A DNA stretch of 36,020 nucleotides from Cochliopodium minus (Eukaryota > Discosea > Himatismenida > Cochliopodiidae): assembly GCA_024220525.1 (NCBI GenBank), contig JAMYWO010000096.1:69674-105693 (forward strand). The letters are read 5' to 3'. Positions 7,865-34,827 of the stretch are shown in pieces; the first letter of the stretch is position 1, and every line of letters begins with the position of its first letter. Made by a program: the position numbers and the translations under genes. The notes beneath the pieces were generated by a model. That model made no database searches. It saw only the letters and a list, made by a program, of their open reading frames with translations, and was not told the DNA's origin.

Positions 7865-8219
7865 AAAAATCTATTTAAATCCTTTTTTTTTTTCAGGTTT
7901 AAAAAGACTTTTTTTAAAAAACACAAATTTTCATAAATAAAATTTTTTTTCACAAATCTTTTTGACAAATCAACTTGTAAAAGTCAATCTTAAATTTTAT
8001 CTTTTTTTTTTAAAAAGATATGAAAATTATTTATTAAAGAAATCTTTACAAAATAATAACGACAAAAATATTTTTAAACATTGTATAAGAAGTGCCGAAT
8101 CAAATTGTGAGAAAGAATCCATTTCAAGAAAGAACAGATTTTGAAAAATAGAGTATTTTTTGAAAAAGAAAAAAAAAAAATCTCCATTGATTATTGATTG
8201 TAAAGTTCAAAATATAAGA
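7865..8219. other. intergenic spacer between copies 1 and 2
   Basis: 355 bases of A/T-rich sequence holding the copy 1 3' end and the copy 2 promoter. The open frame upstream of 8220 begins with TTG at 8160, not ATG, so it is not taken as coding. No other feature seen. Confidence 0.6.
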
Positions 8220-10401: not shown

Positions 10402-10710
10402 CAACCTATTTTTCAAAGGGGTTGGTTTTAATATTTTACAATTTGTTTTTCAATTCTAGTTTTTTCAGTTTGTATTAAATGATTTTTAAAAGTTCATATT
10501 ATATATATTTTTTTTTTTTTGATCAAATTTCCACATTAAATATCATCTTGTACCAATTCAAATTATATGGATTGAAGTGAATCTCTATAATCTTTAACAA
10601 AGATGATTTTAAATTTAGGAATTCCCGAAAAGAGGAGATATAGATTTTAATAATTTTAAAATTTAAATTAATTTTAAAAAAAAAAAAATCATAACGTTGA
10701 ATAATTGCAA
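10402..10710. other. intergenic spacer between copies 2 and 3
   Basis: 309 bases of A/T-rich sequence with no supportable gene or RNA; it holds the copy 2 3' end and the copy 3 5' flank. Confidence 0.6.
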
Positions 10711-12957
10711 ATGAAAATACTTATTTTATTGATTTTCTTGATATATGGGGTTTATTCATTAGATGTTTTGCTTGAAAATGGAACCACAAAACATTATTAT
10801 ACACAACCTTTCTTTGGAAATAAATCTCCAATTGTAAATGGCCAGATTATCACATTTTTGGGTTTATTGGGAACAACTGCGAAAGAATTACAAGCTTGTG
10901 ACAAGTAATAAAAGATTCACAAACAAAAATTTGTTGATAGACAATCAATCCAAATTTATTAATTAATTTTATAACTTAGAGCACCACCCACCGCATTTTT
11001 GAATCAATCCATTGCAGTGGTTGCTCCATTTGGTAAAAAAATTATAAATTTTCTTTTGGAAAAGCAAAAAAAAATCATAACACTTTTATATATAAAGGTG
11101 GATGTTCAATTGAAAGACATATAGTGGTAAAAATGATTGAAAAAATGATATCTTAATAGTTAAATCTTTTTTCACATCACTATTATTTGCATATAATTTT
11201 TTAATCTTTGATTGAAATTTTAAAATTCCTTTTTTTTTTTGTATAATTCCTCTCACATTAATTTATTTTAATTACCCTCTTTATTAAAAAAAGGTTGCTC
11301 AGTAAGAAAAAAAATTTTGAAAAATGTTCTATACCTAATTCCTCTTTTAAAATCTTTTCAAAAAAAGAAATGCAGGAGCAGTGGCAGTTTTGGTAATTGC
11401 GGATCCTCAATGGAAGTAATCTTTTTTCTTCAATTATTAAAACGATCTTAATTTCATCTCTTCAATATTTTTGTTTGTTAGGACTTGTAGAATGACTGAT
11501 GCTTATCATCACAATAACACTATCCCAGCAATGTGTATTTCAGGTGATGATTTTACAAATTTGATCTCAATAATCATTGCTAATGGTAAAAATAAAAAAA
11601 AAAAATAATTATTTTTTCCCAAGGATTTCTTTACTAATTCTCCATCATGGATTCTTCAAATAATAAAATATAATATTATAAAATTTTGAATAAATTTACC
11701 TTTAAAGAAAAGATAAATACTTTCTTATATCAACCACCTTCTTTTCCAAACTAAACTTTTATTCTTTGATTTTTTAAAGGCATCAAGAATCCACCCCAGT
11801 ATTTTTTTTTTTTTTTTTATTTAATTTATTTATAATCTTCCTTCAACTAAAAATAATAATAATTTTTTCTTCTTCTATTCAGAGCAACGATTGCTATTTT
11901 CAATGCAGATCCTGTTGAATATGATTCAAAATTAAATCATCGTTTGATGGATTTTGGAACGATAACATACTTCATCCTATACATCATTGGAGGGATTTTA
12001 TCCATCATCAGATTCATCCAATTTATAAAAGTGGAAGGATGGGAAGTTACTCTCCCAAAAATATTGTTGGGGATGAATATCTATAGTATCAATTTTTTTT
12101 ATTTTTACATTTTATTTATTTATTTTTAATTCTCAATAAAACAATAGGTGCTTTTTTTAGTGCCATCATTGTTATTGACTTGCAAGGTTATAGAGGTTGG
12201 TATGTCACAATGCAGTACCAAGTGACTTATTACTTTTGGATAGGGACAGCTGGCATGTATCAATTTATGCTTTTTTCTGGTTACATTGCAAGTATTTTGG
12301 TCAAATTTTCTAAACATAAAAAAATACTCGAAAAATTGAATTATATTCTTACCGGATCATTGATAGTAAAAACTTTTTTTTTACCATTTTGAGTTTTTTT
12401 TTTAAATTTTTTTGTTTTGTTTTTTTTTTTTTTGTCAGTTGACATACGTTGTGTCAATTATTGTTTTCTCGGTTTATGGATACACTTGGAACTTTAATGC
12501 TGCAATAGGAAACGCAATCACAACTATTGTGGCAGTGATAGAAGGAACAACCGCCATTTTCTTTTTGTTTTCTGCGACCATTCTTATCACAAGGTTGGCC
12601 ACATTCATAGGAGGAATGAAATCAGAGAAAAGGGATGAAAAGAAAAAAAAATATTTTTTCTTGTCAATCATGTTGTTCTTCGCTTTCTTGGTAGATTTTT
12701 TGGCATTCGCCATCACAGTAGCAATCGTTTTCAAAAGTATTCAAAACAACATAGGAACGTACATGGCCATTTATTTCGTTTTGAACATTTCTGCTCTTGG
12801 GTGGGTGTATATCATTTTGTTGGTCTTTAATACTAGAGATCATTCCAAGAAGGCCAGTGCTAGTAGCTCTCAGTTCAAGAAGAGTGATGAGATGAATAAA
12901 AGTTTCAATGGTGATACTCAATCTAAACAAACCAAGAGTTATGTAGAAATGAATTAA
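10711..12957 (+). CDS. PA-domain seven-transmembrane protein, copy 3
   Basis: Ten exons: 10711..10904, 10980..11032, 11098..11126, 11294..11301, 11368..11415, 11482..11585, 11780..11798, 11883..12085, 12148..12365, 12439..12957; 464 residues, TAA stop. The first ATG is at 10711; the frame opens at a TTG two codons upstream. Signal peptide MKILILLIFLIYGVYS, PA domain with core AGAVAVLVIAD, seven helices with the family motifs GYRGWY between helices 2 and 3 and VYGYTWNF between 4 and 5. The tail ends KSYVEMN. It pairs most closely with copy 4: the intron before exon 8 is nearly identical between them apart from homopolymer length. Confidence 0.88.
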
Positions 12958-13301
12958 TTTATTTTTTTAAACTAACAAAATGTACAACAAAATTTTTCAT
13001 TTTTCATTTTTCTTGTTGAAATAGCTTTTTTCATAATTTTTTTTATTAAAATTGTTTTTATCTTGTTTATATCATTTAAAATTCAATTTTTAAAAAATGA
13101 AAGTTCAACTGAATATTGAATCCAAATGTATAATCAATGGGTTCTTGAATTGAATTCTGAAGAAATCCAATTTGAAAACAAAATTTAATATATATCCGAT
13201 TTAAAAAGAAAGAATTTGGGTTGATGTTTTAGGATTAATATTTTAATGAAATAATTTATCGATTTAAATTTATTGAAAAAAAAAAAACCAGTTTTTATAC
13301 C
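12958..13301. other. intergenic spacer between copies 3 and 4
   Basis: 344 bases, A/T-rich, no gene or RNA seen; includes the copy 3 3' end and copy 4 upstream sequence. Confidence 0.6.
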
Positions 13302-15409
13302 ATGAAAAAACTGTTCTTGTTGATTCTCTTCCTATTTGGTGTTTCTTCAATTGAAGTGATGCTAGAAAATGGAACTACAAAACATTATTATACAGCTCCT
13401 TTTCATGGAAATAAATCTCCGATTGAAAATGGGAAGATCATCACCTTCATTGGACTATTTGGAACAACTGCAAAAGATTTGCAAGCTTGTGATAAGTTAT
13501 TTCAAATCACTAATAAAAGTTTTTTCTTAAATTTATGTGATTTTTTTTTATAGGGCACCTCCGACTGCAATTTTGAATCAATCCATTGCGGTTGTTGCTC
13601 CATTTGGTAAACAAAAAAATTTTCTAATTTGAAGAAAAAAAATTATAAACAAAATTATATAAAGGTGGATGTTCGATTGAAAGACATATAGTGGTAATGA
13701 ATTGAAAATGAATAATAGTATATATCAATTCAATTCAATATTAAATTAAATATAATTTTTTAATCTTTGATATATAATAATTTTTAAAATTTATTCCGAC
13801 AATTAAAAATCATCCTCTATTTAAAAGGTTGCTCAGTAAATAGTTTTTTGAAGTTCCTTTTTTACCTTATGTTTTTAATCCCCCTTTTAAAATCTATTCA
13901 ATAGGAATGCAGGAGCATTGGCAGTTTTGGTTGTAGCAGATCCTGTTTGGAAGTAAGTTTTTCTTCAAAAGATTTTAACAAAATCTTAATTTCATCTTCA
14001 CTTTTTTCAAAAGGAATTGTAGAACGACCGATGCTTATCCAAAAAATAACACTATCCCAGCAATGTGTATTTCGGGTGATGATTTTACAGATTTGATCTC
14101 AATAATCATTGCTAATGGTAAAATAAAAAACATATTTTTTAAATTCTAAGATTCTTCTCAATAAAAAAAGTAATAATTAATTTACCTGTGAAGATACCTA
14201 TATCTTTCAAAATATCCAATCTGTTTCTTTTATTATTATTTTTTAGGTAGCAAGAATCCACCACAGTATTTTTTTTTTTATTTTTTATTTAATTTATTTA
14301 TAATCTTCCTTCAACTAAAAATAATAATAATTTTTTCTTCTATTCAGAGCAACGATTGCTATTTTCAATGCAGATCCTGTTGATTATGATACAAAATTAA
14401 ATCATCGTTTGATGGATTGGGGAACGATTACTTTCTTCATCCTCTACATCATTGGAGGAATTTTATCCATCATTAGATTCATCCAATTTATAAAAGTTGA
14501 AGGATGGGAAATTACTCTCCCAAAAATATTGTTGGGAATCAATATCTATAGTAACAATTTTTTTTTTATTTTTACATTTTATTTATTTATTTAAATACTT
14601 AGATGGTTTTGCGAGTGCCATTGTTGTTATTGACATGCAAGGATATAGAGGTTGGTACGTTACTGAACAGTATCAAATAACTTATTTCTTTTGGCTGGGA
14701 ACACCTACATTATATCAATTTATTCTATTTTCTGGTTACATTGCAAGTATTTTGGTCAAGTTTTCTCAATATAAATCAATTCTCGAAAAATTAAACTATA
14801 TACTTTCCGGCTCATTATTGGTAACAAATAATTTAAATTTTATTAATAAAGTTTTAAGTAATTGTTTCCAAAAAATTAATGATTAATTCCTAGTTGACAT
14901 TTTTTGTGGCAAACATTGTTTTTTCGGTTTATGGATACACTTGGAACTTTAATGCTGCAATTGGAAATGCTACTACCACAATTATTGCGGTAATAGAAGG
15001 AGTGACAGCCATTTTCTTTTTGTTTTCTGCGACTATTTTAGTTGCAAGGTTAGCCACTTTTGTTGGAATGAGATCAGAGAAAAGAGAAGAAAGAAAAAGA
15101 AGATATTTGTTTTTGTCGATGATGTTATTCTTCTCTTTCATGGTCGATTGTCTTGGATTTGCTATCACAGTAGCAATCACTTCCAAAAAAGTTCAAAACA
15201 ACATTGAATCCTATTTTGTAGCATATTTCTTTTTGAACATTTCTGTTCTTGGATGGATCTGTATTATTTTGATTGTTTTTAATCCTAGAGATCATTCAAA
15301 GAAAGCCAGTCAAAATAGTTTTCAATTCAAAAAGAGTGATGAGATGAACAAAAGTTTTAATGATAACGAATCAAACAAACCTACAAAGAGTTATGTAGAA
15401 ATGAACTAG
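13302..15409 (+). CDS. PA-domain seven-transmembrane protein, copy 4
   Basis: Ten exons: 13302..13495, 13554..13606, 13665..13693, 13828..13835, 13905..13952, 14014..14117, 14247..14265, 14348..14550, 14603..14820, 14894..15409; 463 residues, TAG stop. Same plan as copy 3: signal peptide (MKKLFLLILFLFGVSS), four-cysteine PA domain, seven helices, tail ending KSYVEMN. In exon 6 the HH pair of YHHN in copies 1-3 becomes PK without changing length. Exon lengths 53, 29, 8, 48, 104, 19, 203 and 218 are identical to copies 1-3. Intron 1 starts with a weaker GTTATT donor. Confidence 0.88.
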
Positions 15410-15695
15410 GTTTTTGACTCTGATTATTAAAAAAAAATTTTTTTTTGACCTTCTTTGTAACTCATTCTTTTTACAAAATGATTAAACTAGTAAAATATTC
15501 AAATTTTTTGATTAAAATTTAAATCTAAATTTAAAAGTTGAAATGTTCAAATGTAAAAAGAAATATTTGAAGGAATAATTCAAATCGCACATGGACTTCA
15601 GTATATATCCGTTAAACATTTATATATTGAATTTTTTTGGAAAAATAAAAAAATTTGAAAAAAAAAATTCAGATTCCCAAAAATATAATACGATA

Positions 15696-17053: not shown

Positions 17054-18661
17054 TCAATTTTCATTTGAATCCTGAACTGTTATTTTTTTTATGACTTTGA
17101 AAGGGGCATTGAGGGTTTTGGACTTTGCGACCTTTCGAAGCTTCATCTCACCAGGAGGGCTAGTACCGAGAACCTCCTTCTTGATGAAAACCTTCTTGGC
17201 AAAGCCTTTCTCAGGAGTGATACCAATAGAAGGAGGAGGTCTCATAGGACGTTTTAAAGGAGTCTTAGTCATCAGAATCACTTTTCCGCTTTCATCAACT
17301 TTCTTTCCAATGATGAAATTATTTCCATTGCTTGTACGAAGATTAGACTCATTAAGGAAAGAGATGGGCTTGTTATCGTTTGTTTCATTGAGGGTTGTTT
17401 CGTTAGAAGTAATGGAAGGATGTTTCTTTTCTAAGGTAGGACTTCCTGTGACGGGATCAAGGTCAAGATCGCTTTCCATTTCGAGAGTGTTGTCGAGCAT
17501 TCCGTACATGGCGGTGTTCCTCTCAGTGGTTATTCTCACATTCACTATTCTATCAGAAGTCTTATTTCCATCCTCTTTGTTCAAAAGCAAAAGATTGAGA
17601 TTTTCTATTTTCGGAAAATTAATCTTCAATTCCTTTTTATCACTGATGAGATGATTATATAAATTCTTGGATTGATGTGTTCCATTCTTATCTTTTTGAT
17701 CAATAAGATCAAGAGGATCATTATCCTTGATGGTAGGCTTTTTGGTGATGGGAGTAGAATTTATGTTTCCATCAGTGGAGGTATGTTTCTTCTTCATCAC
17801 TTTTTTGAACAGAATATTGGTGGTAACCTTGATATCCTCCTCCTCTATCTTATCATGGGTGTTTTTTCGAGGTGAATTACAAGATAATCCAGGTGATGTG
17901 GAGAATAGAAAACTTGTTTCAATATTATTGTGATTTTCCAAATCAATATCTTCCACCATAATATTCTCTTCATCAACTATCTTCTTATTCTTCTTTAAAT
18001 TCTTAATCTTCTTTATCACTTCTGATTTTCTGAGGGTTCCTCTTCTATTTTTGGAATTATTATTATTAGTGAATTTCTCGTTCAATATCTTGAATAATTT
18101 GATGCTAGACACATTTGGATCTTCCAATTGATAAGGAGAAACTCGGCTCAGAATTTCATTTGTGGTTTGTATTCTTTTATTCTCGCTTAACGTGCTTGAT
18201 ATTATTTGCATTGTTAAAAGCTCGAATTGAACGATTTTGTTCTTCATCTTCTGTCCACAGATGCATAGGTGATTTAATTCATTATTGGCACATTCTGTAC
18301 AATATAATATATGCCCACATACCATTGAATAAACATTTCTGTATCTCTTTTTGCAATTTATACAGAATCTCTTCATTTTTTCTGCTTCAGTCAATTTATT
18401 ATATATATTTCTATTTTGGAGAATATTGTCAAAGATATATTTATGATCTTTTGTGAATTTAGTAATCTCCAACTCATTTTTGTCTTCATTCAATTTTTTA
18501 ATTTTTATTTTGAACAATTCATCCACTACATTGAACCATCTTTTCTCCACCAATCTTGCAGACAATAAATCTAGAAAATTCAGTTCATTTAATATTATCA
18601 TTAACAATGAATCTTCCAAATGAGAGATATTTTTCTTTTGTAATGTCGGCCCTAAAACCAT
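17054..18661 (-). CDS. F-box and RING-like zinc finger protein
   Basis: Single exon, 535 residues. Residues about 12-50 (HLEDSLLMIILNELNFLDLL...KRWFNVV) match the F-box pattern, which binds Skp1 in SCF ubiquitin ligases. Residues about 98-146 carry C-x2-C, CGH, C-x2-C and a final C-x-C, a degenerate C3HC4 RING arrangement (CINC...CGHILYCTEC...CIC). The remaining roughly 390 residues are low in hydrophobics, rich in Ser, Thr, Asn and Lys, and hold several S/T-P-x-K/R sites (SPRK, TPLK, TPEK), so cyclin-dependent kinase control is possible. Having both an F-box and a RING-type finger suggests a ubiquitin-ligase component; F-box plus zinc-binding-region proteins of the Emi type are a possible comparison. 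The start at 18661 is the first ATG; the helicase gene diverges 450 bases away. Confidence 0.8.
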   Translation of the reverse strand: MVLGPTLQKKNISHLEDSLLMIILNELNFLDLLSARLVEKRWFNVVDELFKIKIKKLNEDKNELEITKFTKDHKYIFDNILQNRNIYNKLTEAEKMKRFCINCKKRYRNVYSMVCGHILYCTECANNELNHLCICGQKMKNKIVQFELLTMQIISSTLSENKRIQTTNEILSRVSPYQLEDPNVSSIKLFKILNEKFTNNNNSKNRRGTLRKSEVIKKIKNLKKNKKIVDEENIMVEDIDLENHNNIETSFLFSTSPGLSCNSPRKNTHDKIEEEDIKVTTNILFKKVMKKKHTSTDGNINSTPITKKPTIKDNDPLDLIDQKDKNGTHQSKNLYNHLISDKKELKINFPKIENLNLLLLNKEDGNKTSDRIVNVRITTERNTAMYGMLDNTLEMESDLDLDPVTGSPTLEKKHPSITSNETTLNETNDNKPISFLNESNLRTSNGNNFIIGKKVDESGKVILMTKTPLKRPMRPPPSIGITPEKGFAKKVFIKKEVLGTSPPGEMKLRKVAKSKTLNAPFKVIKKITVQDSNEN

Positions 18662-19111
18662 TTTCTATATATTTCAAAATTATTGTAAAACCCCTTTCTA
18701 TAAATTTGTTGTAGTTAAAATTTAAAATTTATTTTGTTAATCTCCCTTTCTATTTTTTTTTTTTATATTTTACAGTTTAAAAAAAATAAAAATATTTTGA
18801 ATTATTATTCTAAAAAATAGACATCGAACTGAACATTTGGATCTAATTCGATCTTAAAATCCAAAAATTTTTCTTCAAAATTATTTTTTTGTTAAGAATA
18901 TAAAATCTTAAAATACAAGATTCCATTTAGAGATCTAATTTCACAATTAGGAAAAAACATTACCAGAACATTCTTTTTTAATATCCATTTGTTTGTCCAA
19001 TATGAGATAATTAAAATATTTCATAAAAATAAAATATAAAAAAATTAAGAATAGAAACATTTGTTTATAGCGCCATATTCGATTATTTAAACCAATTTAT
19101 AAAAATAAAAA
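18662..19111. promoter_or_regulatory. divergent intergenic region (F-box / helicase)
   Basis: 450 bases between two divergent start codons, so it should contain both promoters. A/T-rich with no gene, RNA or clear core element that I can name. Confidence 0.5.
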
Positions 19112-22100: not shown

Positions 22101-23517
22101 TTTTGTTATTTTTTATTTTTGATGTTAGTTTTATTTTATTCTTTTAAAGTTTTTATTTATTTATTATTTTTTAAAATAATTTATTTTTTCATTTTAGTTT
22201 TTATTTTTATTATTTTTTTGGTAATTTCATTTTCTTTTTTTAACATTTTCATTTTTTTTGTTCAAGGACGAAGCAACCCAATCAACCGAACCTTCTGCTT
22301 TAATTTCATTAGTGAAAGGAACCCAACAGTTATTTCTTTTTGGAGTAAACAAACCATTATAAACAAATTATTAGTTTTTTAATTTTTTTTTTTTTTAAAA
22401 CGGATATTTTATAATGTACTTGTTTTAAACATTTTTTCAATTATTTTCTTACTTTATTTTTTTAAATAATTTATTTTTCTAAAATTATTTATTTTATTTT
22501 TTTTTTTAAATTTTTTTTTTAATTTTTAATTTTTAATAAAGGATCACAAACAATTGTCACCTACAGTAACATCTTCAAACAAAGAGCTAGAAAAATCGTT
22601 TTTCGTGAAATGGGTAGAAAAAGGGATCGAACCCCTCATGCTCAGCACCCAATACAGAATGCACCCTTCCATCTCCGAATTTCCCTCTCAGCAGTTTTAT
22701 GATGGAAAGTTGGTCAATGGTGTTTTGGAAGATGACAGGAAAACTTATGACAACTTTGATTGGGTCAATCCTAATGTTCCTGTCATGTTTTTGAATGTCA
22801 ATGGCTTGGAAGAAAAATCTATTCAGCAGAGTAAGTACAATAGAGCTGAGGTTTTGATTTTGGTGGAGATGTTTAAAAAATTGAAGAAAGAAAACTTTAA
22901 TTTTGATGAAATAGGTTTTTTTTTTAAAAAAAAATTATTTTTATTTATTGTTGTTTTTAAAAGTTTTAAATTTTTTTTTTGTTTTAAAAGTTTTTATTTT
23001 TTTTTTATTTTTACTTATGATTCTTTTTTTTCTAGCCATTTTATCTCCTTATGCTTCTCAAATCAAACTCATCAAAAGAACTCTTAAAACTCATAACTTG
23101 TTGGATCCTAATTTAAGTGTAACCCTTCTCCTTCTTTTTTATTTATTCCCGCTCTTTTTTTTTTTATATTTTTTTTTAAAATAGATTCAAACAATTGATG
23201 GATTTCAAGGAAGAGAAAAGGAGATCATCATCTTTTCAACTGTCAGATCTAATGTGAAGAACAAAGTAGGTTTCTTGAGTGATCAAAGAAGACTCAATGT
23301 AGCTTTGACACGTGCGAGAAGAGGTCTCATCGTTCTTGGTAACCAAAAGACCCTTCAAAGCAATGAAGTTTGGAACAAGTGGTTTCTTTGGGCTGAGAAA
23401 CTTGACATCATCAGGGATTATGAAAAACCTGAATCTGAAAAAATCAACCAGCTTGTTCCTGTTGCTGTGGATGAAGAATCTGAAAATGAGAATGACAAAG
23501 ATCCTGTCGACAATTAA
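19112..23517 (+). CDS. UPF1-type superfamily 1 helicase
   Basis: Thirteen exons: 19112..19389, 19552..19882, 19978..20149, 20222..20319, 20384..20546, 20725..20979, 21156..21179, 21236..21328, 21567..21892, 22267..22344, 22542..22914, 23036..23118, 23185..23517; 868 residues, TAA stop; every junction keeps phase. Motifs in order: LNESQ (Q-motif region), GPPGTGKT (I), ATCQSNTAVDNL (Ia), DEAT (II), GDHKQL (III), QYRMHP (IV), DGFQGREKE (V), VALTRARRG (VI). These define an SF1B 5'-3' RNA/DNA helicase of the UPF1/SEN1/IGHMBP2 group. The N-terminal 90 residues look like a ubiquitin-like fold and are followed by an acidic then Lys-rich linker. The Cys/His domain of true UPF1 is not seen, so nonsense-mediated decay is not implied. 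Walker A is split by an intron. Intron 21893..22266 (374 bases) is T-rich filler. Confidence 0.9.
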
Positions 23518-23765: not shown

Positions 23766-26700
23766 ATGAGTAAAAAAAAATTAACATCCAAATTTAATTA
23801 TCACTATCAAAAATATATTTTTGTTGGATAGACAAAGGAGAAGTGGAAACAATAGCAATTGAATTTGCAACATATTATTGTTCATTTTCGATCAAAATAA
23901 AATCAGAAGAAGAGCCAATCATCCACAATAAGTGGAATGGTGAAGATGATGGTGCTTTCAAAAATCAGGTGATCCTCATATACAAGAAAGGAGAAGAGAA
24001 TAAAGATCCAGTGGAATGGGGATATAAATGTATTGAATTTTGGAAAGAGATGAAGATAGGGGAAAGAGATAATTACATCTTATACAGAAATTTCAGAGGA
24101 TTTCTTTTCGATAAGGAGAAGATGCAATTGGGAAAGAAATTGGTGGTGGATTATTTGAAATTGATCTTTAACGAGATTATATATTCGATGGAGGAAAATA
24201 ATTATGCAATAACAAAGGGATCAAAATACATCATAACTGTAAATAGAATCTAAATAAATTAATATAAAGTTTTATTTGGATAAAAAGAGGATATAAAAGA
24301 TATAATCAAATTATTTAAAGGCACCAACCACATTTGATAATGATAAAAAAAACATATTGAAAGAATGTTTCGTTGAATCTGGGATATTGGACAAAACATT
24401 GTCGAAAGAACACGAGATAATATCAGAATCACTGGCCTCAGTGAAATACATCATCAACTCGAAAGAAAACAAAAACCTCATCCTCCATAACAAACCCTTT
24501 CTCCTCTTCGACGCAGGGGCAGGGAAATTCTCGATATCTTTTTTCACATTCGATTTTTCACTGAAAACTCTGAAGCAATTAGGAACTCCATTGGGTGTCA
24601 CAAGGGGATCCACTCATTCTGACATTAATTTTTTGACATGGATGCAGTCATTGTTGGAAGAAAGTCAACAAAACCAATCTTGGTTTGGAATTTTTGAGAG
24701 TAATCCTGATTTCTATGAAAACTGGATTCGAACTAAACATTCTTTTAATGATAATAAAAATGACGTTTATGTAGAAATCCCTTCTTCTTTGTTTGAAATG
24801 CTGAAATTTAAGAAACAAAGTGTAGATCTCTTCAAAGGGAAAGAAATTAAAATACCGAAAGAAAAAATGAGATCTTTTTTCTTTGGATTAATTGAGACGA
24901 ACATTGTTCTGCTTCAAAGAGCATTGGACAAAAACGAAGGAATAGAAGATATCATTTGTGTTGGAGGTTATTCCAATTCCGATCTTCTTTTCAACCATCT
25001 CAAAGAAGAATTTGAATGGAAAAAATATAACGGGAAAAGAAGAAAAGTTTTCAGAACGTATGCTTCCGAATTGTCTGTTGTCTCAGGTGCTTCTTACTCC
25101 GATAAAATAAAACTCAACATCACCGAAACCCGTTCTCCTATCTCTTTTCAAAAAACCAAAATGTCCAATTTCTTTTTTGGCTCGAAAAATAGGAATGATG
25201 TCATCGAAGAAGGCTTGAAGTTGTTCGAAGAGCTGGGGTTTTCTGAAAAAGAAAGATACAGAGAATTTTTGAACGAGAAAAACATTTCTTCAATGAAAGA
25301 TTCTGACAAAAACACTCCACTTCATTTGGCATGTAAGAATGCGAGCTATCACATTGATGTCATCAAATTTCTTATTGATAATAAAAGTGAGATCAATTCA
25401 AAGAACAACACACAACTCACTTCTTTGCATTTTTCTTGTGAAAATCCTAATGCTTCCTTTGCTATCATCAAATTTTTGGTTCACACAAAATCTGACATTA
25501 ATTCAAAAGATGAAAATGAAACTAGTCCACTTCATGTTGCATGTAAAAATGAAAATATCTACATTAAAATCGTCAAATTTTTGGTTGAAAATAAATCTGA
25601 AATTAATTCGAGAGACAAGTTTCTTGGTACTCCTGTTCATTCCTCTTGCATCAATCCCAAAATTTCTCTTGAAATCTTAAAGTTTTTGGTTGAAAGCAAA
25701 GCAGATTTGAACATGAAAGATCATTTCAAAAATAACACTTTGCACATCGCTTGTAAGAATGATACAATCACATTTGAAGTTGTAAAGTATTTGGTGGACA
25801 ATAAATGTGAAATCAATACAAGAAATAAATATGACAATGTTCCTCTCTATATCGCCTGCCAAAACGAACACATGACCATTGATATTCTCAGATTTTTGAT
25901 TGAAAACAAAAGTGTAATCAACATCGAAGATGAAATAAAAAAGACACCTCTACATTTTGCCTGTAAAAATAAGAATGTATCGTTAAACATCATCAAATTT
26001 CTTGTCGAAAACAAATCACATCTTAATTTGTGCGACAAATACTTGACCACCCCTCTCCACTTTGCTTGTGAAAACAATTTGTCTCTAAACATCATAAAGT
26101 ACATGGTTGAAAATAACTCTGACTTGAATTTAAAAAATGCCAATGGATCTACTCCTTTTCACTATTCTTTTGAAAACCCTTACGTAACATTGGATGTTGT
26201 GAAATTCATGGCAGAAAATAAATCTGATTTGAATTTGAAGTTTGGGGTTCTTTCGGAGATTCCTCTGCACTTTTCTTGCAGAAACAAGAACATTTCTTTT
26301 CCGATAATCAAATTCTTTATTGAGAACAAGAATGATGTAAACTCCAAAAACTCAAACAATTTCACTCCTCTTCACTTTTTGTGTCAAAATGAAAATATTT
26401 CTTTTGAAATGTTGAAATGTTTGGTTGAAAGTGATTCTAAAATAAATGCAAAAACAAATGAAGAAGAAATTCCCCTGCATTTTGCCATGAGAAACAAAAA
26501 CATCACTTTTGATTCCATTAAATTATTGATCGAAAAGAAAAGTGATTTAAATTTGAAAGACAAGTTTGGTGACTGTTGCATCCATCATGTTTTTGAGAAT
26601 GAAGTTTCTTTTGAAATGATCAAATTTTTGGTCGAAAGCAAATCTGATCTCAACCAAAACGGCTCCAAAGGAAGATCACCTCTGGATCTGGCGTGTGCGA

Positions 26701-29700
26701 TAGAAGGGATACCAATACAGATCATAAAGTATTTAATTGAGAAAGGATCGAAGGACATGAACAATTTTTCTTTCATCAAATATGCAATAAAAAACAAAGA
26801 CAAGATCATTCATTTACATGACAAAATAGTTTTGTTTGACGGTTATTTCGACGGAGATCTCCACAAAATGGAATTCAATGGAATAGGATCTGTTACTCAT
26901 TTCACCAAAGACAAGTTTTTGATGACATTAGATGGACAGTGGAAAGGTGGAAGGCTGGAGGGGAAGGCGAAGATGATTTCCAACGAGGATGGTGTTGAGT
27001 CCTACTTTTCTGGCGTTTTCTACAACGGGGTTAGGAAGGAGGGGATTTTGAAAGAATCTGGAAAGGAATACCTTGTAATTTTTGATGATAATGGAGAAGA
27101 AATCAAAGATTTTAGACAAAGAACTTTCGAAGGGATAAGAATAATGATAGGTAAAAAAAATTATTTTTTTATTTTTATTTTTTCTTCGTTCTTTTTTTTA
27201 CAATTTATTTTTATTTTTATTTTTATTTTTATTTTTATTTTTATTTTTATTTTTATTTTTATTTTTATTTTTATTTTTATTTTTTCTCTATTTTTAAGAT
27301 TTTTTTGTTTGTGTTTTTAAAGATTTTTTTTTTTCATTAATTTTTTACTAGTTGGTTGTGAAAATGTTGGGAAAACAACTTTGAAAACAAGATTGATTGG
27401 TTCTACTAAAAATAATGAGAAATCGTTTTCACAAGTTCAGCAAATCAAAAAAGAAAAAATGATGACACATGGAGTCGACATAGAGCAATGGGAAAACAAA
27501 GAAAAAGGAATTTGTAAAATAAACAAAAAAAAATTTTTATTTTTTATTTTTTTTATATTTTTTTATTTTTTTATTTTTTTACTTTTATTTTATTTTTTTT
27601 TTATAATAATGTTTAAAAAATTCATTTTTTAAAAAAAAAATAAGATGAGATTTGAATCAGATATTGTTTTTTTATTTTTTTTCATTTTTTTATTTTTTTA
27701 TTTTTTTATTTTTTTTATTTTTTTATTTTTTTATTTTTTCATTTTTTTATTTTTATTTAAAAATTCATTTTTTAAAAAAAATAAGGTTTCTCTATGTGGG
27801 ATTTTGCAGGACATGAGGAATACCATATTGGACACAGTTTTTTCTTCACATCTGGTATCAAATCAAAAAAAAAAAAAAAATCATTAATTTAATTTTCACA
27901 TTCCTTTCTTTAGGATGCATTTACCTTCTTTTGTTCGACATGTCTTTGCCAATTAATGACATCATTTCCAAAAACAAATTGTTGTATTGGTAAAAAAAAA
28001 AAAATTTAAAAAATATGTGATCATTCTTCTAAATAGGTTTCATTTCTTACAATCTCAAGGTTTTTTTCAATTTTTTAAATATTTTTTTTCTTCTTTTTAA
28101 TATTGATTTGATTTAATTTTATTCTTTTTTCTTTCGATAAAGTTGGATCAAGCTCACCAGTGTTGTTGATAGGAACAAAGTTTGACAAAATAGAAAAGAA
28201 CATTCCCAACACTATAAAGACAGAAAGCGAAAGAAAAAATATTATTGATGAGAAAGTGAACGAAATAAATGAAGGTAAAAAAAAACAAAAAAAATTAAAA
28301 AAAAAAACTTTTTTAAAAAATCAATTTTAATTAAAAAAAAAAGAAATATTGAAAACGATTGAGAAAAACAAAATTTATCTTCTATTTCACAAATTCCACA
28401 ACACTTCATTGAACAAAGAAATACTTTTCCATTACATGAAAAACAGAGAGTTGGATCTTTCAAACTCTGGAATAAATGATCTTTTCCAAATTTTGTCCAA
28501 ACAATACGACAACACAGAAAATAGCGTTTCAACAGATCTCTCTCATAAAACCGTAATTTTCTTAAAATTTTTTTTTTTTACTTTTAACAAAAATCTTATC
28601 CATTTGAAAAAAGGTAAATGATCTCATCAACCAACTTTCCAACAAAGATCTATTTCTCAAAAAAATTTCCAAAACCAAAAAAGAAGAAACTCCAAATGTT
28701 GGAAAAACACCAAAGTACATGAACATGGGAGCCAAAAAATATTTGGAAGAATTCTTGGACAAAAAGGAGTTGTTTTCTCTTGATGAAAAAGATCCCAAAT
28801 TGGAAGAAAGCAAGTTCAAATTCATTAATTCGAGAATATCTGATTGTGAAATCTTCTTTAAATCAACAAAAGAGCTTCAGTCTGGTGCCATATGGTGGGG
28901 AGAGAAACTTAACTTGCAAAACGGGTTTTCCACAAAGTTCAAATTTAAAATACTTTCAAAGAGTGGTGAGGGGTTTGCATTTGTCCTTCAAAACGTAAAA
29001 TAAAAAAAAAATTCTTTTTTTTATTTTTTTATTTTTTTCAACAGGATCCATCTTCTTTCAAAGCAATTGGTAAAAAAAAATATTTCATAATCTTTTTTAA
29101 ATAAAATTTTTTTTTATTTTTTTAATTTATACAGGGAAAAAAGGAGGAGGATTGGGATATGAAGGACTCAGAAGTTGTTTGGCTGTAGAGTTTGACACCA
29201 ACAAAAATCTTGCAACAAAAGATTCCAACGACAACCACATTTCCGTAATGACAGGAGACAAAGGAATATGTACTAGCAACCACACTAAATCAGAAATAAA
29301 GTGTTTTAATCTTTCAGAGTTTGGACTAAAGTTGACTGATGGAAAAGAACATTGTGTAGAAATTTATTATGATGGAGAAAACTCTGATTTCGAATTAATT
29401 GTTGATGAAAAGTTTTTCTTCAACTTCAAAGTCAATTTGAACCAAATCTTTCCTTATGAATGTTGTGTCGGTTTCACTTCTTCAGGAAAAAACAACATGA
29501 ATATCATTTCTCAATGGAAATGCTTTTATTCTTATTTTCCGAAAGTAGAAAACTCTTCAAGTTTAGATATGATCAGCCTTGTTGAAGGAAGAAAAGAAAC
29601 AAATTCCAAAAATGATGAAGAGGTGGAGAGTAATGACAATGATGAAGAGGGAGATGATGGAGAGTTTGTTCCTTTCATTAATGTCGTTTCTTTGAAAAAA

Positions 29701-32700
29701 GAGTTGGAGAACAAGTTGAAGAATCAATCAGAAATTTACGAGAGGCAAGAAACAATGTATTTGATCAATAATCTTGAAAACATCCTTAAAGATCTTCACA
29801 AACTTGGTATGATCATTTATTTCGATGATCCTCTTCTCAGAAATATTTTGATTTCTCATCCATCTTGGTTTAATGATGGTAAAAAAAAAAAAAAATTTAT
29901 TATTTTTGAACATTTTTATTATTTTTTCAAATTCCTTAAAAATCAATTATATTTTTAGTTATCAAATCAATTATTGATAGAGGAAGGAGGAAGATTGAAA
30001 TTTTGATAGAAAACATTCACAACAGATTTAATGATTTGAAAGAAGAGCTCGAGAATGATAACCAAGAAGATGATCAAGCAGATGAAAACGAAGAAAACAG
30101 CAACGAAAACAAAAACTCCCCAAACAACTTCAACGTAGCTAAAAACGAGTTGAAAGTGGTTGAGGGAATTCTCGAGATAACAAAGAATGTTTTGATCAAC
30201 TTGAAAGGAAAAGTAGATTGGGACAATGACATCGAAAACATCTGGAATGATGAGGATCTGAAAAGGAAATCTAACGTAGACAAGTTGAGTTTTGGAACTT
30301 TACTTTCAAATATCGAAGACATGGAATCAAAGTTAAAGAGAAACAAAATTTCCAAGATTGTTTTCAACGATATCATGCAGGTAGAAAATGATCAACTCAA
30401 CAACGCCAAAAACAATTTTTCTCAGCTCTTCTACACCATAAATAAAGACAACCTCGAAGATATTATGATAGATATATTGGGAGAGAATTATAGAGAGGAC
30501 AAGAACAAAAAGGAATACATGGAAGAGTTGTTGATCAGGTTCGATTTCATTTTGATGGAAGGAAGACAAAAATTTGAAAAGGGTGACAAGAAGGCGACAA
30601 GAAAACAGAACTACTTGGTTCCTCTTCTTTTTCCTAACATGAAACCTAAAAACATCAACTTGATGGAAGAAGAAAGGGAGACGGACTACTCGAAATTGAA
30701 GCTCAAAAAAGAGTGGGTTCTCAATTATCTCATTCCTTTCAAACATTCTTCTTTTTGGAAGATTTTCTTTTTTAAATTGAGAAAGATTTGTAATGGTTTT
30801 GGAAATTCTCTCGAAATAAAATCTGAAATCTATTGGAATGATGGTAAAATACTTTTTTTTTCATTAAAAATTTTTAATTTTTAAACTCATTATTAATATT
30901 CTTATATTTATTTTAATTCAAATTTTAAGTTTATTTAAATTTTTTTCTTATATTTTATTTTTTCGAAATTTTATTTTATTTTTCATCTAAAAATAGGATT
31001 CATTATTTACCTCGAAAACCAAAAGAAGGACAAAATTTTGATAGATGTGGAATTCAAATCCTTTGATTTCCATTCTTTTGAAGCTCTGAACAAGATAAGC
31101 ATTGGAAAATACGAGGACTATTTGGGGTACAATGAAAAACTTACAATAAAAGTGAAAACAAACAAGAACCCTCAATTTGTTATTGGTAAGATAAATAATT
31201 GTGTTGAATATTTCGTTGAGAATTGGATGAATTCTGATGTTTATCAAATCACAAACAAAACCATCCATCAAAATAGAAATGAAAACAAAAAGACTTTCAA
31301 CTTTGTTGTTAATTTCAAACAAAAAACCTCCAAGCAGGACTTAAACGAATCTACAATTTTGAAGGAACAATCCAAGGTAAATATATATATTTATTTAATT
31401 TTATTTTTTAATATTTAAATATTTAAATTTTTTTTTTTTTATTAAAGTTTGAATGTGTTTACTGTGGACTTTCTGTTTTGATGAAAGTTAAAGAAAAGGA
31501 ATGCAAATTTTGTAATAATGAGTTTTTGATTGAAAAGCAATTTGGTATTTTGAAGACAATAGCACAAGGAGGTAAAAAAGATTGTTTATAGTGTTGGAAT
31601 TTATTTTTGTTTTTTAATAAAAAAAAAAAGGATTTGGAAGGATTTTCAAAGCAAAACATCTCAAAACATCCATAATGGTTGCCATCAAAGAAAGGATAAA
31701 TGATAAATTGATTGAAGAATCAGAAAATGAAGTAAAAACACTCCTTACAATAGAAAAAACCGTTCCTGATCTCAATACCTCCAGATTGATTTGCACTTTG
31801 GACGATACAAACAGAAATATCCTCCAAAAGTATATGATTATCGAGTGGGTGGAGGGAAAAGACTTTACTTTTATCAGTGAGTTGTTCAATCGAAAGCCTG
31901 AAGAAGAAAAGGAGATTGAAATGGTCAGATTGATGCTCATTTTGCTGAATGAATTGAAGAAACTCCATTCCAAAGGATATTTGCATAGAGATTTGAAATT
32001 AGATAATCTGATGTATTACATTGAAAATGAAAAGATAAACTACATTCTGATTGATTTCGGTTAAAAAAAATTTAATTAATTTATCTTTAAAAATATCTCT
32101 CATTAAGAGAAATCTGATACAAATGTTTTTTTTTTTAGGATCCTCATCACATAAAGACATTCCTTTTAATAAAAGAGTAAAGAGTAATTCAAGACCATTT
32201 ACACCACCTGAACAAAACACAGAAAGAGAAGACTTTGGGAGTGATGTACATGCTTTGGGTGTTTGCTTCTCAAGCATAATGAAAACAATAAAAATTGACA
32301 AATTGTTTCCCAAAATAAATGAAATAATAGATGAAATGTCTAAAAAAGAGATAAAAGAAAGAACTTCCATCGACCAATGCCTACAAAAGTTAATCGAATA
32401 CTCGAACGAAAAAAATTTTCAAGACAAAAACATCTTTTTCAAATCGATTGTTGATGGAAAGTTGGTGATCGTAAATGAAAAATTAAATGAAAGTATCTCC
32501 TTCATTAGAAATACAATACAAAAAGAAACAAAAAAAAACAAAATTCTTTCTGGAAACTTCCTCTCTTTCATTAATCCTAATCTCCTCAACTCCGCTTCTT
32601 TACATCGAAGATCTTCAATGGGTCTTAATAACGAAGCATTACCTAGTATTTATAAAGAGAACTCTTTCAAAGTTCTTTTAACAAATGAAGAAAAATACAT

Positions 32701-34827
32701 CTCCAACAACGAAGATAAACAAAATTGTGTTATTTCAAACAAAATATTGATTCCTGGAAAGTATTTCCTAAAACTTAAATTCAAACTCGGAGATGAGAAA
32801 TCATCTTATTTTGGTAAAAAAAATTAATTTGAATTTTTTAATTTCACTGTTTATTTATACATATTTTTTTTTTGATAGGGTTTTGTGATCCAAAAATAAA
32901 GTATTTTAATAATGAAGAGGATATTATTTTTAAAGTAAATGGTTTTGGAGAATCAAAAGAAATGAAACACTCCAAGTTTTCCTTCAAAAAGAATGAGGAA
33001 GAAGATCTTACTCTCTTGATAGATCTTCATAACCAATACGTATTCATTTTCAACAACAAACAACCCACCACAAACAACCTTCAAAGTTTCCTTCCAGTAC
33101 CCAATACATTCAACGCTTTATCTTTCTTTGTATTGTTTTCAAAGAAAAATGATTTCTGCGAAATTCAAGAATTTTATCATTATCATGATTTCGAGTTCAA
33201 GTTGAACGAGATCAATTCACCTTTCATTGATCTCACCAACAACCAAAGAAACGCCGAGAAGAAAAACGAAGGAGATGAGAATTCAAAATACATCAGCTTG
33301 TTGAGCAAAAACAAATTCAGAACATCTTATCAACCAGAAGGAAGTCAAAGAGTGTTCATAAGAATATTCATGAAATCATCCAAAAAAAATCCTATTCTCA
33401 TTGGTAAAAAAAATATAAAAAAAGATGGAGTTTTCTTGAATATTTTTTTTTTTCTTTTCAAAAAGGTCTTTGTGATGAGACCGGAGGCAATTTAGAAGAA
33501 GATATTATGAAATGGGAAAACAAGTTTGTTTTGTGGGACAAATCAGAAACAGACAAAGATCAGGAATTGCTGTTCATTGTGGATCTCTTCAGAAAAGAAA
33601 TTCAAACTGTCGATCTCTACACCTCGGAAGTCTCCAAAATAAAAAAGCTTACATTGAGAAATAACATCATGAGTCTATGTGCATCACTGTATGATAACGA
33701 AGATTTCCTTGAGGTTTTGGAAAATAAAAACATCCAATTTGAATTTCAATGTTACCCTTCTTACCATAATAATCTTGTCGTTTTCTCTTCTGGAAATAAA
33801 AGTGTTGCTTTCAATGATACTCCCAAATCACTTTATGTTATTTCGAATCCTGTTGTTTCTGTTGAATCATTGACTCTTTTAGTTCATGTAAACTTTGTTT
33901 GCAACAACAGAAACTTTTTTTCTTTTGGTAAGAACAACATTCTCGTTCTTCATTTATTTGATTTAATTAAAATCATTTGTTAATAGGTATTGTTTCGGAT
34001 GTATCTGTCGATCTAGAAACTTTTGAAGAAAACAAAACGAAAATATTCTTCAACTCTTTCGAAGATCAAAACAGAATTACCATCAAAGAGAAACAAAAAA
34101 ATGATATTATCATCTCTATCAACTTTTTGTTGGGAATGATCCATGTCTTTGATTTAAGAGACAACAAAAATGTTTGTAAATTGTTTATCCTAAAAAATAA
34201 TTGATTTTTTTTAAAACATTTTAAAATATTTTAAATCCAAATAAAGATTCAATAGGGGATGTGAATTTAAATGGAATAAGAATTTTCACAAAAATTTCTC
34301 AATTAGATAGCTTCAATATCAAGAGCTGTATTCTCTCCAATCTTAAAATAGAAGAAATACAAAAGGAATTTTATGAATCAACCAAAAACGAGAAGGATTT
34401 CAACTTTAACAACTCGATGTTCTTGACCGAAAACACATTTTTCAAAGTACATGACACTAACAAAGAAATCTCCTTGAAAAGAGGAGGTTCTTTTACTCCA
34501 ACTTCTATCAAACAACAAGATCAAGTAGTAAAGAAGGGTTTATTAGAAAAAAAAACCAAAAAAAAGATTTTCGCACGAAATAATTGGAAGCCCCAGAACT
34601 TTGTTTTGACAGAGAGCACTCTTTATCATTGTAACATTAATGACAATGTGCCTAAGGGAAAAGTTTATGTTTCTGATATTGATCAAGTTCTCGTTCATGA
34701 TGATCCCAACAAGAAGTTTGCTTTCAAAGTTTTAACAAAGGATGACAAAGAGTTTTTGATTGCAGCGAAAGACAATGAGGAGAGGAATGAGTGGATTCAA
34801 AGCATCAAAAAAACTATGGATTTTTAA
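23766..34827 (+). CDS. giant ROCO kinase with Hsp70-like, ankyrin, lectin-like, SPRY-like and PH domains
   Basis: Twenty-one exons: 23766..23769, 23832..24238, 24321..27150, 27352..27513, 27786..27854, 27914..27989, 28037..28059, 28143..28274, 28344..28552, 28614..28994, 29045..29069, 29135..29878, 29959..30843, 30997..31376, 31448..31571, 31631..32059, 32139..32813, 32879..33403, 33466..33927, 33987..34175, 34256..34827. Total 9303 bases, 3100 residues, TAA stop; phase is kept at all 20 junctions. Domains: HSPA12-like ATPase (about 8-400), ankyrins (468-950), MORN-like (978-1060), Roc (1078-1300), L-type lectin-like (1378-1570), acidic linker, COR (1620-2109), zinc ribbon (2110-2140), kinase (2140-2385), three SPRY-like repeats (2470-2955), PH (3000-3098). 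ROCO proteins couple a GTPase dimer switch to kinase output. Several junctions fall inside domains (Hsp70, Roc, lectin, COR, kinase), which argues for one gene rather than neighbours. The four-base first coding exon (ATG-A) is the least certain point. Confidence 0.85.
23832..25110 (+). other. Hsp70/HSPA12-like ATPase module of the ROCO protein
   Basis: Three actin/Hsp70-fold nucleotide motifs are recognisable: phosphate 1 AIEFATYYCSFSI (Hsp70 has IDxGTTxS), phosphate 2 LLFDAGAGKFSIS (Hsp70 DxGGGTxD) near residue 200, and the adenosine motif ICVGGYSNSDLL near residue 351. KYIITAPTTFDNDKKNILKE corresponds to the VPA-connecting segment of the family and crosses the intron 24239..24320. Key Gly/Asp positions are altered, so nucleotide binding is plausible but hydrolysis is uncertain. 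The Hsp70 substrate-binding domain is absent, as in HSPA12-type proteins. Confidence 0.72.
25308..26765 (+). repeat. 14 ankyrin repeats in one exon
   Basis: Fourteen units of about 35 residues (105 bases), each beginning TPLHxACKN-like and ending FLVENKS-D/E-I/L-N-like, run without an intron. Unit 8 and unit 13 are one or two residues shorter; the last unit, SPLDLACA...EKGSKD, closes the stack. Such arrays are protein-binding solenoids. The repeated FLVENKS/FLVESKS core is more uniform than usual, suggesting internal expansion. Confidence 0.92.
26823..27090 (+). other. MORN-like segment
   Basis: Glycine/aromatic-rich units such as DGYFDGDLHKMEFNGIG, DGQWKGGRLEGKAKM and FSGVFYNGVRKEGIL match the MORN pattern (Y/F-x-G-x-W/F-x-x-G-x-x-x-G-x-G) loosely. 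MORN repeats often contact membranes or partner proteins. It sits directly before the Roc P-loop. Confidence 0.6.
27196..27285 (+). repeat. (TTTTTA)n hexamer tract in intron
   Basis: About thirteen tandem TTTTTA units inside the intron 27151..27351 between the MORN-like segment and the Roc P-loop. It keeps an open frame past the exon by chance, but the conserved P-loop lies only in the next exon. Confidence 0.8.
27614..27785 (+). repeat. duplicated 3' splice-site block and heptamer tract in Roc intron
   Basis: The sequence AAAATTCATTTTTTAAAA followed by more A and AATAAG occurs twice in this intron, at about 27616-27644 and 27757-27785, separated by a T-rich tract of ATTTTTT-type heptamers. 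Only the second copy is the working acceptor. Use of the first would read T-AT-GAG-ATT-TGA, a stop. Confidence 0.7.
28840..29540 (+). other. L-type lectin-like domain between Roc and COR
   Basis: Reads GAIWWGEKLNLQNGFSTKFK, GEGFAFVLQN, GGGLGYEGL, CLAVEFDTNKN, NDNHISV, then VGFTSSGKNN with ISQWKCF. This order (F-x-T-x-F...G-F-F-x-L...GYxG...AVEFDT...N..HI...GF-S) is that of legume/L-type lectin sandwiches. AVEFDT and the downstream DSNDNH supply the usual Ca/Mn-site-like Asp and His residues. The domain crosses two introns (28995..29044 and 29070..29134). Sugar binding in the cytosol is not implied; the fold may bind another ligand. Confidence 0.78.
29680..31376 (+). other. COR domain
   Basis: LKDLHKLGMIIYFDDPLLRN and HPSWFND-VIKSII match the first COR block (LxxLGxIxYFxDxxLRxxVILxPxWLxxVI). 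Later come NYLVPLLFPNMKP and a beta-rich C-terminal part through IYLENQKKDKILIDVEF. The stretch has an unusually Asn/Glu/Asp-rich insertion around 30050-30120. COR mediates dimerisation in ROCO proteins. Confidence 0.8.
31448..32400 (+). other. zinc ribbon plus protein kinase domain
   Basis: Exon 15 has two C-x2-C pairs (CVYC and CKFC) directly before the kinase glycine loop GGFGRIFKA, which spans intron 31572..31630. Catalytic elements present: VAIK lysine, alpha-C Glu in ENEVKTL, HRDLKLDNL, DFG split by intron 32060..32138, PPE for APE, and SDVHALGV for the helix F Asp. All residues for activity are there. The closest group by pattern is the tyrosine-kinase-like branch usual for ROCO proteins. 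Confidence 0.85.
32657..34340 (+). repeat. three SPRY-like repeats with matching introns
   Basis: Three stretches share the pattern of a hydrophobic strand, a split Gly, then x-x-D, and later (L/I)-x-x-(L/I)-D/N followed by an aromatic strand: YFG-FCDP...TLLIDLHNQYVFIFNN; ILIG-LCDE...LLFIVDLFRKEIQTVD; FSFG-IVSD...IIISINFLLGMIHVFD. In each an intron cuts the Gly codon in phase 1 (32814..32878, 33404..33465, 33928..33986). The LIDLHNQYVFIFNN piece resembles the SPRY/B30.2 strand (LDxxNGxxxFxNN). Repeats 1 and 3 are the most alike. Confidence 0.6.
34520..34815 (+). other. C-terminal PH domain
   Basis: KKGLLEKKTKKKIFARNNWKP...FVLTESTLYHC...KGKVYVSDI...KKFAFKVLTKDDKEFLIAAKDNEERNEWIQSIKK follows the PH pattern: a basic first strand, a W-K/R-x-x-F strand, and the invariant Trp (EWIQSI) of the closing helix. 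PH domains bind phosphoinositides, so the protein could be held at membranes. Confidence 0.88.

Follow-up and report, generated by a model that had tools for sequence, protein, structure and literature searches.

An HSPA12-like head and an L-type lectin in a predicted ROCO kinase gene of Cochliopodium minus

A stretch of 36,020 nucleotides from Cochliopodium minus, here called the window (contig JAMYWO010000096.1, C96:69674-105693), contains what reads as one gene joining a head, ankyrin repeats, a MORN-like region, a Roc GTPase, a lectin, COR, a zinc-ribbon-like motif, a protein kinase, a tail and a PH domain. This architecture, and the unity of the gene, are close to certain, and its product is very probably a ROCO kinase in kind, with a new make-up. 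That a ROCO kinase could combine an HSPA12-like head with an L-type lectin had been proposed in a first-pass annotation and is supported, decisively by the paralogues of the gene, which bear other heads on the same chassis. The source genome is the same assembly (GCA_024220525.1; 44.65 Mb, 598 contigs), and labels such as C96 and C306 are its contigs. The window protein was scanned against Pfam as three pieces. Its features, in window coordinates, are as follows.

23766..34827, + strand: whole gene, 21 exons, 3100 residues plus stop; splice model without stops
23766..25151, + strand: degenerate HSPA12-like (Hsp70-fold) head, residues 1-414; by paralogue identity and family profile against PDB
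25311..26783, + strand: ankyrin domain of 14 repeats, residues 468-958; Pfam Ank_2 8.7e-68, repeat starts 34-36 residues apart
26832..27119, + strand: MORN-like region, residues 975-1070 (limits by eye); by the homologous region of C185
27120..28661, + strand: Roc GTPase and C-terminal linker, residues 1071-1320, several exons; Pfam Roc 1.9e-16
28037..28059, + strand: 23-nucleotide microexon within Roc, skipped by the automatic model; with it, YWFHFLQSQVGSSSPVLLIGTKFD is restored
28806..29541, + strand: L-type (legume-type) lectin between Roc and COR, residues 1369-1575; Pfam PF18483
29674..31376, + strand: COR, residues 1620-2109; Pfam COR-A 2.5e-5, below cut-off, with paralogue support
31448..31540, + strand: CxxC...CxxC zinc-ribbon-like motif, residues 2110-2140; from the sequence, in the same exon as the kinase start
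31541..32410, + strand: Ser/Thr-type protein kinase, residues 2141-2384; Pfam Pkinase 4.3e-20 and catalytic motifs
32750..34404, + strand: tail of unknown fold, first two modules mutually related; by hhalign
34525..34818, + strand: PH domain, residues 3001-3098; Pfam PH 1.1e-15

Gene structure and shared introns

An automatic coding/intron splice model, trained on the open exons of the gene itself, yields 20 exons and 3089 residues, stop-free from 23766 to 34824 and then TAA. With the 23-nucleotide microexon added, the 21 exons and 3100 residues in one frame that had been claimed at first pass are reproduced, stop-free over the same span plus TAA, and the normal Roc strand ahead of TKFD (the TKxD motif) is brought back. 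Exon 1 is ATGA only. Fifteen of the 20 introns are in phase 1. An alternative acceptor near the last one (34255/34256), noted by eye, would alter a few residues.

Part of the join thus depends on splice prediction, by a model that skipped one microexon, and this is what favours an artefact, in which neighbouring genes or an assembly chimaera have been read as one. Three module borders, however, are crossed without splicing. Exon 3 (24321-27150) is a single open frame of 943 codons that takes in the greater part of the HSPA12 head and runs on through the ankyrins and the MORN-like region into the first Roc strand; exon 12 spans lectin and COR with no splice between them; and exon 15 holds the zinc-ribbon motif plus the start of the kinase. 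The junctions claimed to fall inside conserved motifs are found in or beside them: one residue ahead of the Roc P-loop, four residues ahead of WDFAG (G3), in the lectin core, in the kinase glycine loop (by eye) and at the G of DFG.

Paralogues on other contigs repeat the order. C185, which is cut off by its contig end, has a Ras-like part (Pfam 6e-24), then Ank, MORN, Roc, lectin, COR, zinc ribbon, kinase and tail. C325 and C87 each have an LRR-like (leucine-rich repeat-like) head followed by MORN, Roc, lectin, COR, zinc ribbon, kinase, tail and PH (Pfam 9e-9 and 5e-11, respectively). C306 repeats HSPA12, Ank (6e-37), a MORN-like region, Roc (2.5e-11), COR, zinc ribbon and a kinase-like part, with no lectin. 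When these four are aligned with C96 from Roc onward, nine of the 18 window introns (after window residues 1080, 1157, 1234, 1687, 1982, 2109, 2150, 2518 and 2693) coincide in column and phase with an intron of one or more of them, those after 1080, 1234, 1687, 1982 and 2109 being common to all three lectin paralogues. None of the remaining nine lies in the same column of a relative. The paralogue models come from the same window-trained splice model, with some visible mis-splicing; such shared training could bias them toward similar splice signals, not toward identical positions. Since modules are joined within single exons and introns are shared with paralogues, two or more neighbouring genes stitched together are rejected as the source of the architecture, and an artefact of any of these kinds is very improbable. 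[In C19 and C387 one uninterrupted frame, of 1284 and 1299 codons respectively, holds the Roc, COR and kinase matches; C153 is similar, with 1252 codons, but has one TAA within its Roc match.]

The paralogues are numerous. A query running from Roc through the lectin to COR has at least 74 matches in the genome (best 45 of 253 candidates scored), and one of kinase and tail at least 54 (best 46 of 148 candidates scored), window exons included in both.

The lectin between Roc and COR and the C-terminal parts

The ankyrins, Roc, kinase and PH domain of the first-pass annotation all pass their Pfam cut-offs. Roc, the GTPase domain of ROCO proteins, scores 60.8 bits against a cut-off of 27; it carries G1, G2, G3 and G4 motifs, and its best PDB match is the Roc of LRRK2 (5.2e-12). 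The profile check for MORN that had been proposed fares less well, with no Pfam match in the window protein and, in the homologous region of C185, one at 1.8e-4 that is 0.8 bits below cut-off; MORN of C325, C87 and C306 was judged by eye.

The lectin-like fold claimed at first pass falls just short in the window protein itself and is backed by its paralogues. Pfam PF18483 is matched at 7.2e-21 with 75.5 bits, 2.8 under the cut-off of 78.3, and Lectin_legB is not listed by Pfam for the window protein at E<=1. The lectins of C185, C325 and C87, 48-54% identical to that of the window, all exceed the Lectin_legB cut-off, and those of C325 and C87 exceed that of PF18483. The best PDB match of the window lectin is a legume lectin (7elv, 1.5e-9). 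As in L-type and legume lectins, LAVEFDT and DNH are retained, which we take to have a role in metal binding; unlike them, this lectin is part of a GTPase-kinase protein, in which it separates Roc from COR. It matches the legume-lectin profile, and it is a putative carbohydrate binder.

The lectin is absent from the 11 other ROCO genes of a Roc+COR tree of 15 genes, built with the lectin columns excluded (C108, with 296 of 719 columns, was too incomplete and was dropped). In all 11, the matches to the Roc linker and to COR are consecutive, and hardly any DNA, or none, separates them. The two matches overlap or nearly touch in C153, C75, C19, C387, C30, C127, C4, C77 and C217; in C75 the end at query residue 250 and the start at 559 are only 7 bases apart. 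In C306 they are 73 bases apart, and in C91 they touch, the P-loop part of its Roc being beyond the stretch examined. Of 200 lectin columns, 195 are filled in C87, 185 in C325 and 198 in C185, against 0-14 in the lectin-less rows, C91 excepted: its 161 stem from an overall alignment of 24% identity and it was not counted as a lectin gene. On this tree one branch (99/99; recovered in 98% of bootstrap trees) sets the four lectin genes (C96, C185, C325 and C87) apart from the rest; 0 of 500 shuffles were as low. Caution is due for the long branches of C306 and C4, and for the branch of the window gene, too short because its row is the alignment query. The lectin thus reads as having been inserted between Roc and COR, in one clade of four genes. 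The Pfam lectin family has 14 matches at nine genome places, four of them these genes, and none is over cut-off exon by exon. Lectin relatives were found at 39 loci in bacterial genomes, many titled Acidobacteria or Planctomycetes. [Relatives of COR were sought in viral contigs too, where 71 pattern matches gave 0 confirmed.]

C-terminal to COR, and after the CxxC...CxxC pattern (present in C325, C87 and C306 too; in C185 visible in the open frame and lost in its splice model), comes a kinase with VAIK, HRDLKLDN, DFG and PPE. It scores 72.6 bits with Pkinase (cut-off 31.7) versus 37.1 with PK_Tyr_Ser-Thr. MELK is its best PDB relative, followed by PpkA, CaMK1, CDK9, MARK and others; LRRK is not among the best 60 of 820 matches. 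The comparison with LRRK-like sensors that had been drawn holds in part against LRRK1 and LRRK2 (ROCO group 2). Alike are the N-terminal repeats including ankyrins, the Roc-COR, the C-terminal position of the kinase and the best match of Roc. Unlike are the HSPA12 head, the lectin between Roc and COR, the zinc ribbon before the kinase, the terminal PH and a kinase nearer to MELK, CaMK1 and others. The Pfam scan finds neither LRR nor WD40 in the window protein, so that the LRR before Roc of ROCO group 2 is missing, as is the TKL-type kinase with WD40 tail of LRRK1 and LRRK2.

The SPRY-like repeats reported for the tail are not upheld: there is no Pfam SPRY, no PDB match of the tail profile at E<=5, and self-BLAST reveals no internal repeat. 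Only the first two of three modules are demonstrably related, their hhalign score of 42.6 exceeding anything in 15 column shuffles (maximum 15.2); scores of 12.1 and 15.8 for modules 1-3 and 2-3 are within the shuffles. Some 14 kb past the window (locus L062 6959-9559, C96 ~119.96-122.56 kb) lies a gene in which a Ras-like part (1.2e-5) is combined with PH (1.3e-13) and with a tail that shares 42% identity with the window tail; no ROCO part is seen in the portion read. The tail+PH unit therefore occurs without the ROCO core too.

The HSPA12-like head

The start of the protein had been called an Hsp70-like ATPase. By itself it gives no match to Pfam HSP70, finds an Hsp70 chain in PDB only at E 0.23 and matches HscA of NCBIfam at 9.8e-4, with 17.8 bits versus a cut-off of 743. 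Seven paralogues can be aligned with it, at 34-38% identity, and four of the eight aligned members match Pfam HSP70 (best 5.2e-11), the window member not among them. A profile of this head family finds DnaK, BiP and Hsc70 in PDB (best 9.6e-8; 108 sequences at E<=0.1). It is solely by way of these paralogues that the relationship to HSPA12/Hsp70 extends across the nucleotide-binding domain and that the head is recognised as a putative, degenerate HSPA12-like ATPase. Like the HSPA12 family, it aligns with copies in this genome bearing IDFGT, VPAIW, DAGGGT and CVGGF, which we take to be motifs of that family; unlike that family, it has degenerate phosphate loops and is fused to an ankyrin-ROCO protein.

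The canonical Hsp70 phosphate loops are needed for ATP hydrolysis. Both are altered in the window head, phosphate-1 being IEFAT in place of IDFGT and phosphate-2 AGAGK in place of AGGGT; the GG loop too is altered (TRGSTHSD), and the adenosine motif CVGGYSNS is retained. AGGGT is kept in seven of ten HSPA12-like copies compared, altered phosphate-2 loops being those of the window, C306 (AGAGF) and C218 (AGAGS); unlike the window head, the latter two retain IDFGT. All three are fused to ankyrins. A fourth ankyrin-fused copy, C81, has canonical loops, and fusion and decay are therefore not strictly coupled. [C81 (Ank 2e-28) and C218 (Ank 2e-9) have no Roc match in the downstream stretch examined.]

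Because the phosphate loops are degenerate, ATPase as a function is probably wrong for the window head. A working chaperone ATPase, the protein then being a stress sensor that couples folding to kinase signalling, would fit the alignment of the head over its length with HSPA12-like paralogues having canonical loops, and would account for the kept adenosine motif. It is an unlikely reading, given that all three loops are altered in the window protein and that C306 and C218, even with IDFGT, have an altered phosphate-2 loop. Moreover, ankyrins come after the head, and no Hsp70 substrate-binding domain is reported by the Pfam scan of the window protein.

Only two of seven inner branches of an HSPA12 tree are well supported, and the tree is therefore silent on a single origin of the C96 and C306 heads. 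Across the genome the HSPA12 query has 31 matches, the window's own exons included, and the module appears to be promiscuous here. Other HSPA12-like heads are fused to vWA (locus L017, 4.7e-13; L019 by likeness) and to Sel1 repeats (L014, 1e-40), and at L015 two copies stand in tandem.

Head variety and possible role

Among 16 ROCO genes examined, the head could be read in 11; for C75, C153, C127, C387, C19 and C4 it was taken from open frames upstream of MORN-Roc. HSPA12+Ank heads are found in C96 and C306, and a Ras-like+Ank head in C185. LRR heads are those of C4 (2e-11), C325 (4e-3) and C87 (2e-3), the last two below cut-off; RCC1 heads those of C127 (2e-15, in a stretch partly N) and C75 (4e-5, below cut-off). 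C387 (8e-4, below cut-off) and, by likeness, C19 have weak Ank heads, and no domain was identified in that of C153. Behind these differing heads, RTFEGIR(I/L)M(I/V) stands directly ahead of the P-loop in seven of the 11, with close variants in the other four. Three head types are present inside the single lectin clade, and HSPA12 and LRR heads both inside and outside it, a distribution which supports head exchange. Repeated loss is a possible alternative.

COR-A is matched at 69 spots in 65 separate places at E<=0.01, of which 19 are above the curated cut-off (one only together with its neighbours), and the union with 39 typed rows of the Roc-lectin-COR search is 73 places. The genome would thus hold roughly 65-73 candidate ROCO places, a rough count that may include chance among its weak matches and miss genes split over several exons. 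The genome is rich in Ras-like GTPases, with at least 155 matches to the Roc profile (best 150 of 491 candidates scored).

As architecture, the layout suggested at first pass is borne out: modules that may be sensors, then a GTPase switch, a kinase and a tail with PH. The preferred reading of the protein, an intracellular ROCO-kinase receptor, is evenly balanced, its receptor-like function being deduced. The HSPA12 head would no longer hydrolyse ATP and would serve with the ankyrins as a binding surface. Ligand bound by the head and/or the lectin would shift the nucleotide state or the dimer of Roc-COR, this change would free the kinase, and PH would keep the protein at a membrane. No signal peptide is visible at the N-terminus, MNKGEVETIAIEF. 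A lectin lacking one would meet glycans mainly on damaged vacuoles or cytosolic microbes, for which reason the most likely job would be surveillance of phagosome damage or of intracellular microbes, with membrane-traffic control second. Receptor-like logic draws more support from the predicted head-swapping family than it had from the one gene.

Several points weigh against a receptor of this design. The absence of a signal peptide was judged by eye only. COR, claimed at first pass, scores 24.7 bits with COR-A, under the cut-off of 35.3, and a COR profile from four members has no PDB match at E<=1; the domain is backed by C4 and C461, which reach the cut-off and align to the window COR (C4 at E 6.6e-40). 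Six of the 11 heads come from open frames upstream of Roc, not from spliced models. A PH fold is no guarantee of phosphoinositide binding. C306 has a kinase-like part alignable with the window kinase (36%, 3.5e-32), but this part gives no Pfam match at E<=0.01 and has lost HRD and DFG residues; kinase output is therefore not universal in the family. In C306, G3 is altered too. Its pseudokinase-like domain (L055 8105-9400) is accompanied by a C-terminal hydrophobic segment (by eye), with no PH seen, and C306 may be a ROCO that is perhaps membrane-anchored and catalytically dead.

A scaffold or regulator of membrane traffic or cytoskeleton, like LRRK2 or Dictyostelium Roco and with no receptor role, is a possible though doubtful alternative. 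Heads would recruit partners, Roc-COR-kinase would modify small GTPases and PH would set location. LRRK2 as the best Roc match, the genome's wealth of Ras-like GTPases, the Ras-like head of C185 and the protein with Ras-like part, similar tail and PH ~14 kb downstream all favour it; the inserted lectin and the head diversity are left unexplained by it. A protist NLR-like repertoire built on ROCO kinases, with dozens of genes, a conserved chassis, exchanged heads and a lectin-inserted clade in which glycan could gate Roc-COR, is suggested tentatively. The likeness to NLR proteins drawn at first pass is an analogy of logic only: the Pfam scans, which covered the window protein and pieces of the paralogues, report neither NACHT nor NB-ARC.

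ROCO proteins have been studied largely via LRRK2 and Parkinson's disease, and sensing by their N-terminal arms is still open. With a family whose arm varies and whose switch is kept, control of Roc-COR-kinase by the heads can be approached directly, and the lectin sits in the Roc-COR linker, at a place from which a bound ligand could act on the switch. Dictyostelium Roco and Amoebozoan IMLRK are likewise large multidomain Roc-COR-kinase proteins with varied extra domains, including LRR, inactive myotubularin, RhoGAP, RasGEF, GRAM and cNB; HSPA12 and L-type lectin are not among the domains named in the available portions of these sources (PMC6337361, PMC2927912), and the word 'lectin' occurs 0 times in PMC6337361. 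In brown algae, according to the available part of PMC11378527, an expanded ROCO family with a variable sensor part is proposed to be immune receptors; these are LRR-ROC-COR proteins, with a peptidase or DUF900 added in two small groups and no kinase reported there, varying by LRR exon shuffling, with up to 47 genes per genome counted by ROC. The window family, by contrast, would vary by exchange of whole heads, has a kinase and has its ~65-73 candidate places counted by COR; it would add to that receptor-repertoire idea (PMC11378527) a protist example with kinase output and whole-head exchange. In the open-licence PMC literature no title on ROCO combined with lectin, HSPA12, MORN or RCC1 is among the matches listed, and no paper pairs 'roco proteins' with 'l-type lectin'. 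PMC7159879 was rejected as a precedent: in the part available, 'Roco' and 'Roc-COR' are in the reference list only and 'lectin' refers to C-type lectin folds.

Upstream of the ROCO gene, four similar multi-pass membrane-protein-like frames stand in tandem (window ~6500-15410, + strand; near 7355, 9880, 12406 and 14894, by eye); an approximate query sequence of one copy has no Pfam match. At 17054-18664 on the - strand is a single-frame protein of 536 codons with a weak RING finger (1.8e-4, below cut-off) and, by eye, an F-box-like start. An AAA_12 helicase-type exon (22530-23087, + strand; 1.3e-23), UPF1-like by eye, belongs to a gene that ends just upstream of the ROCO gene. Elsewhere in the genome are two very large open frames, one of 14711 codons with a Roc-profile match (C1:633812-634150) and one of 4360 codons with a kinase match (C32:86894-88108).

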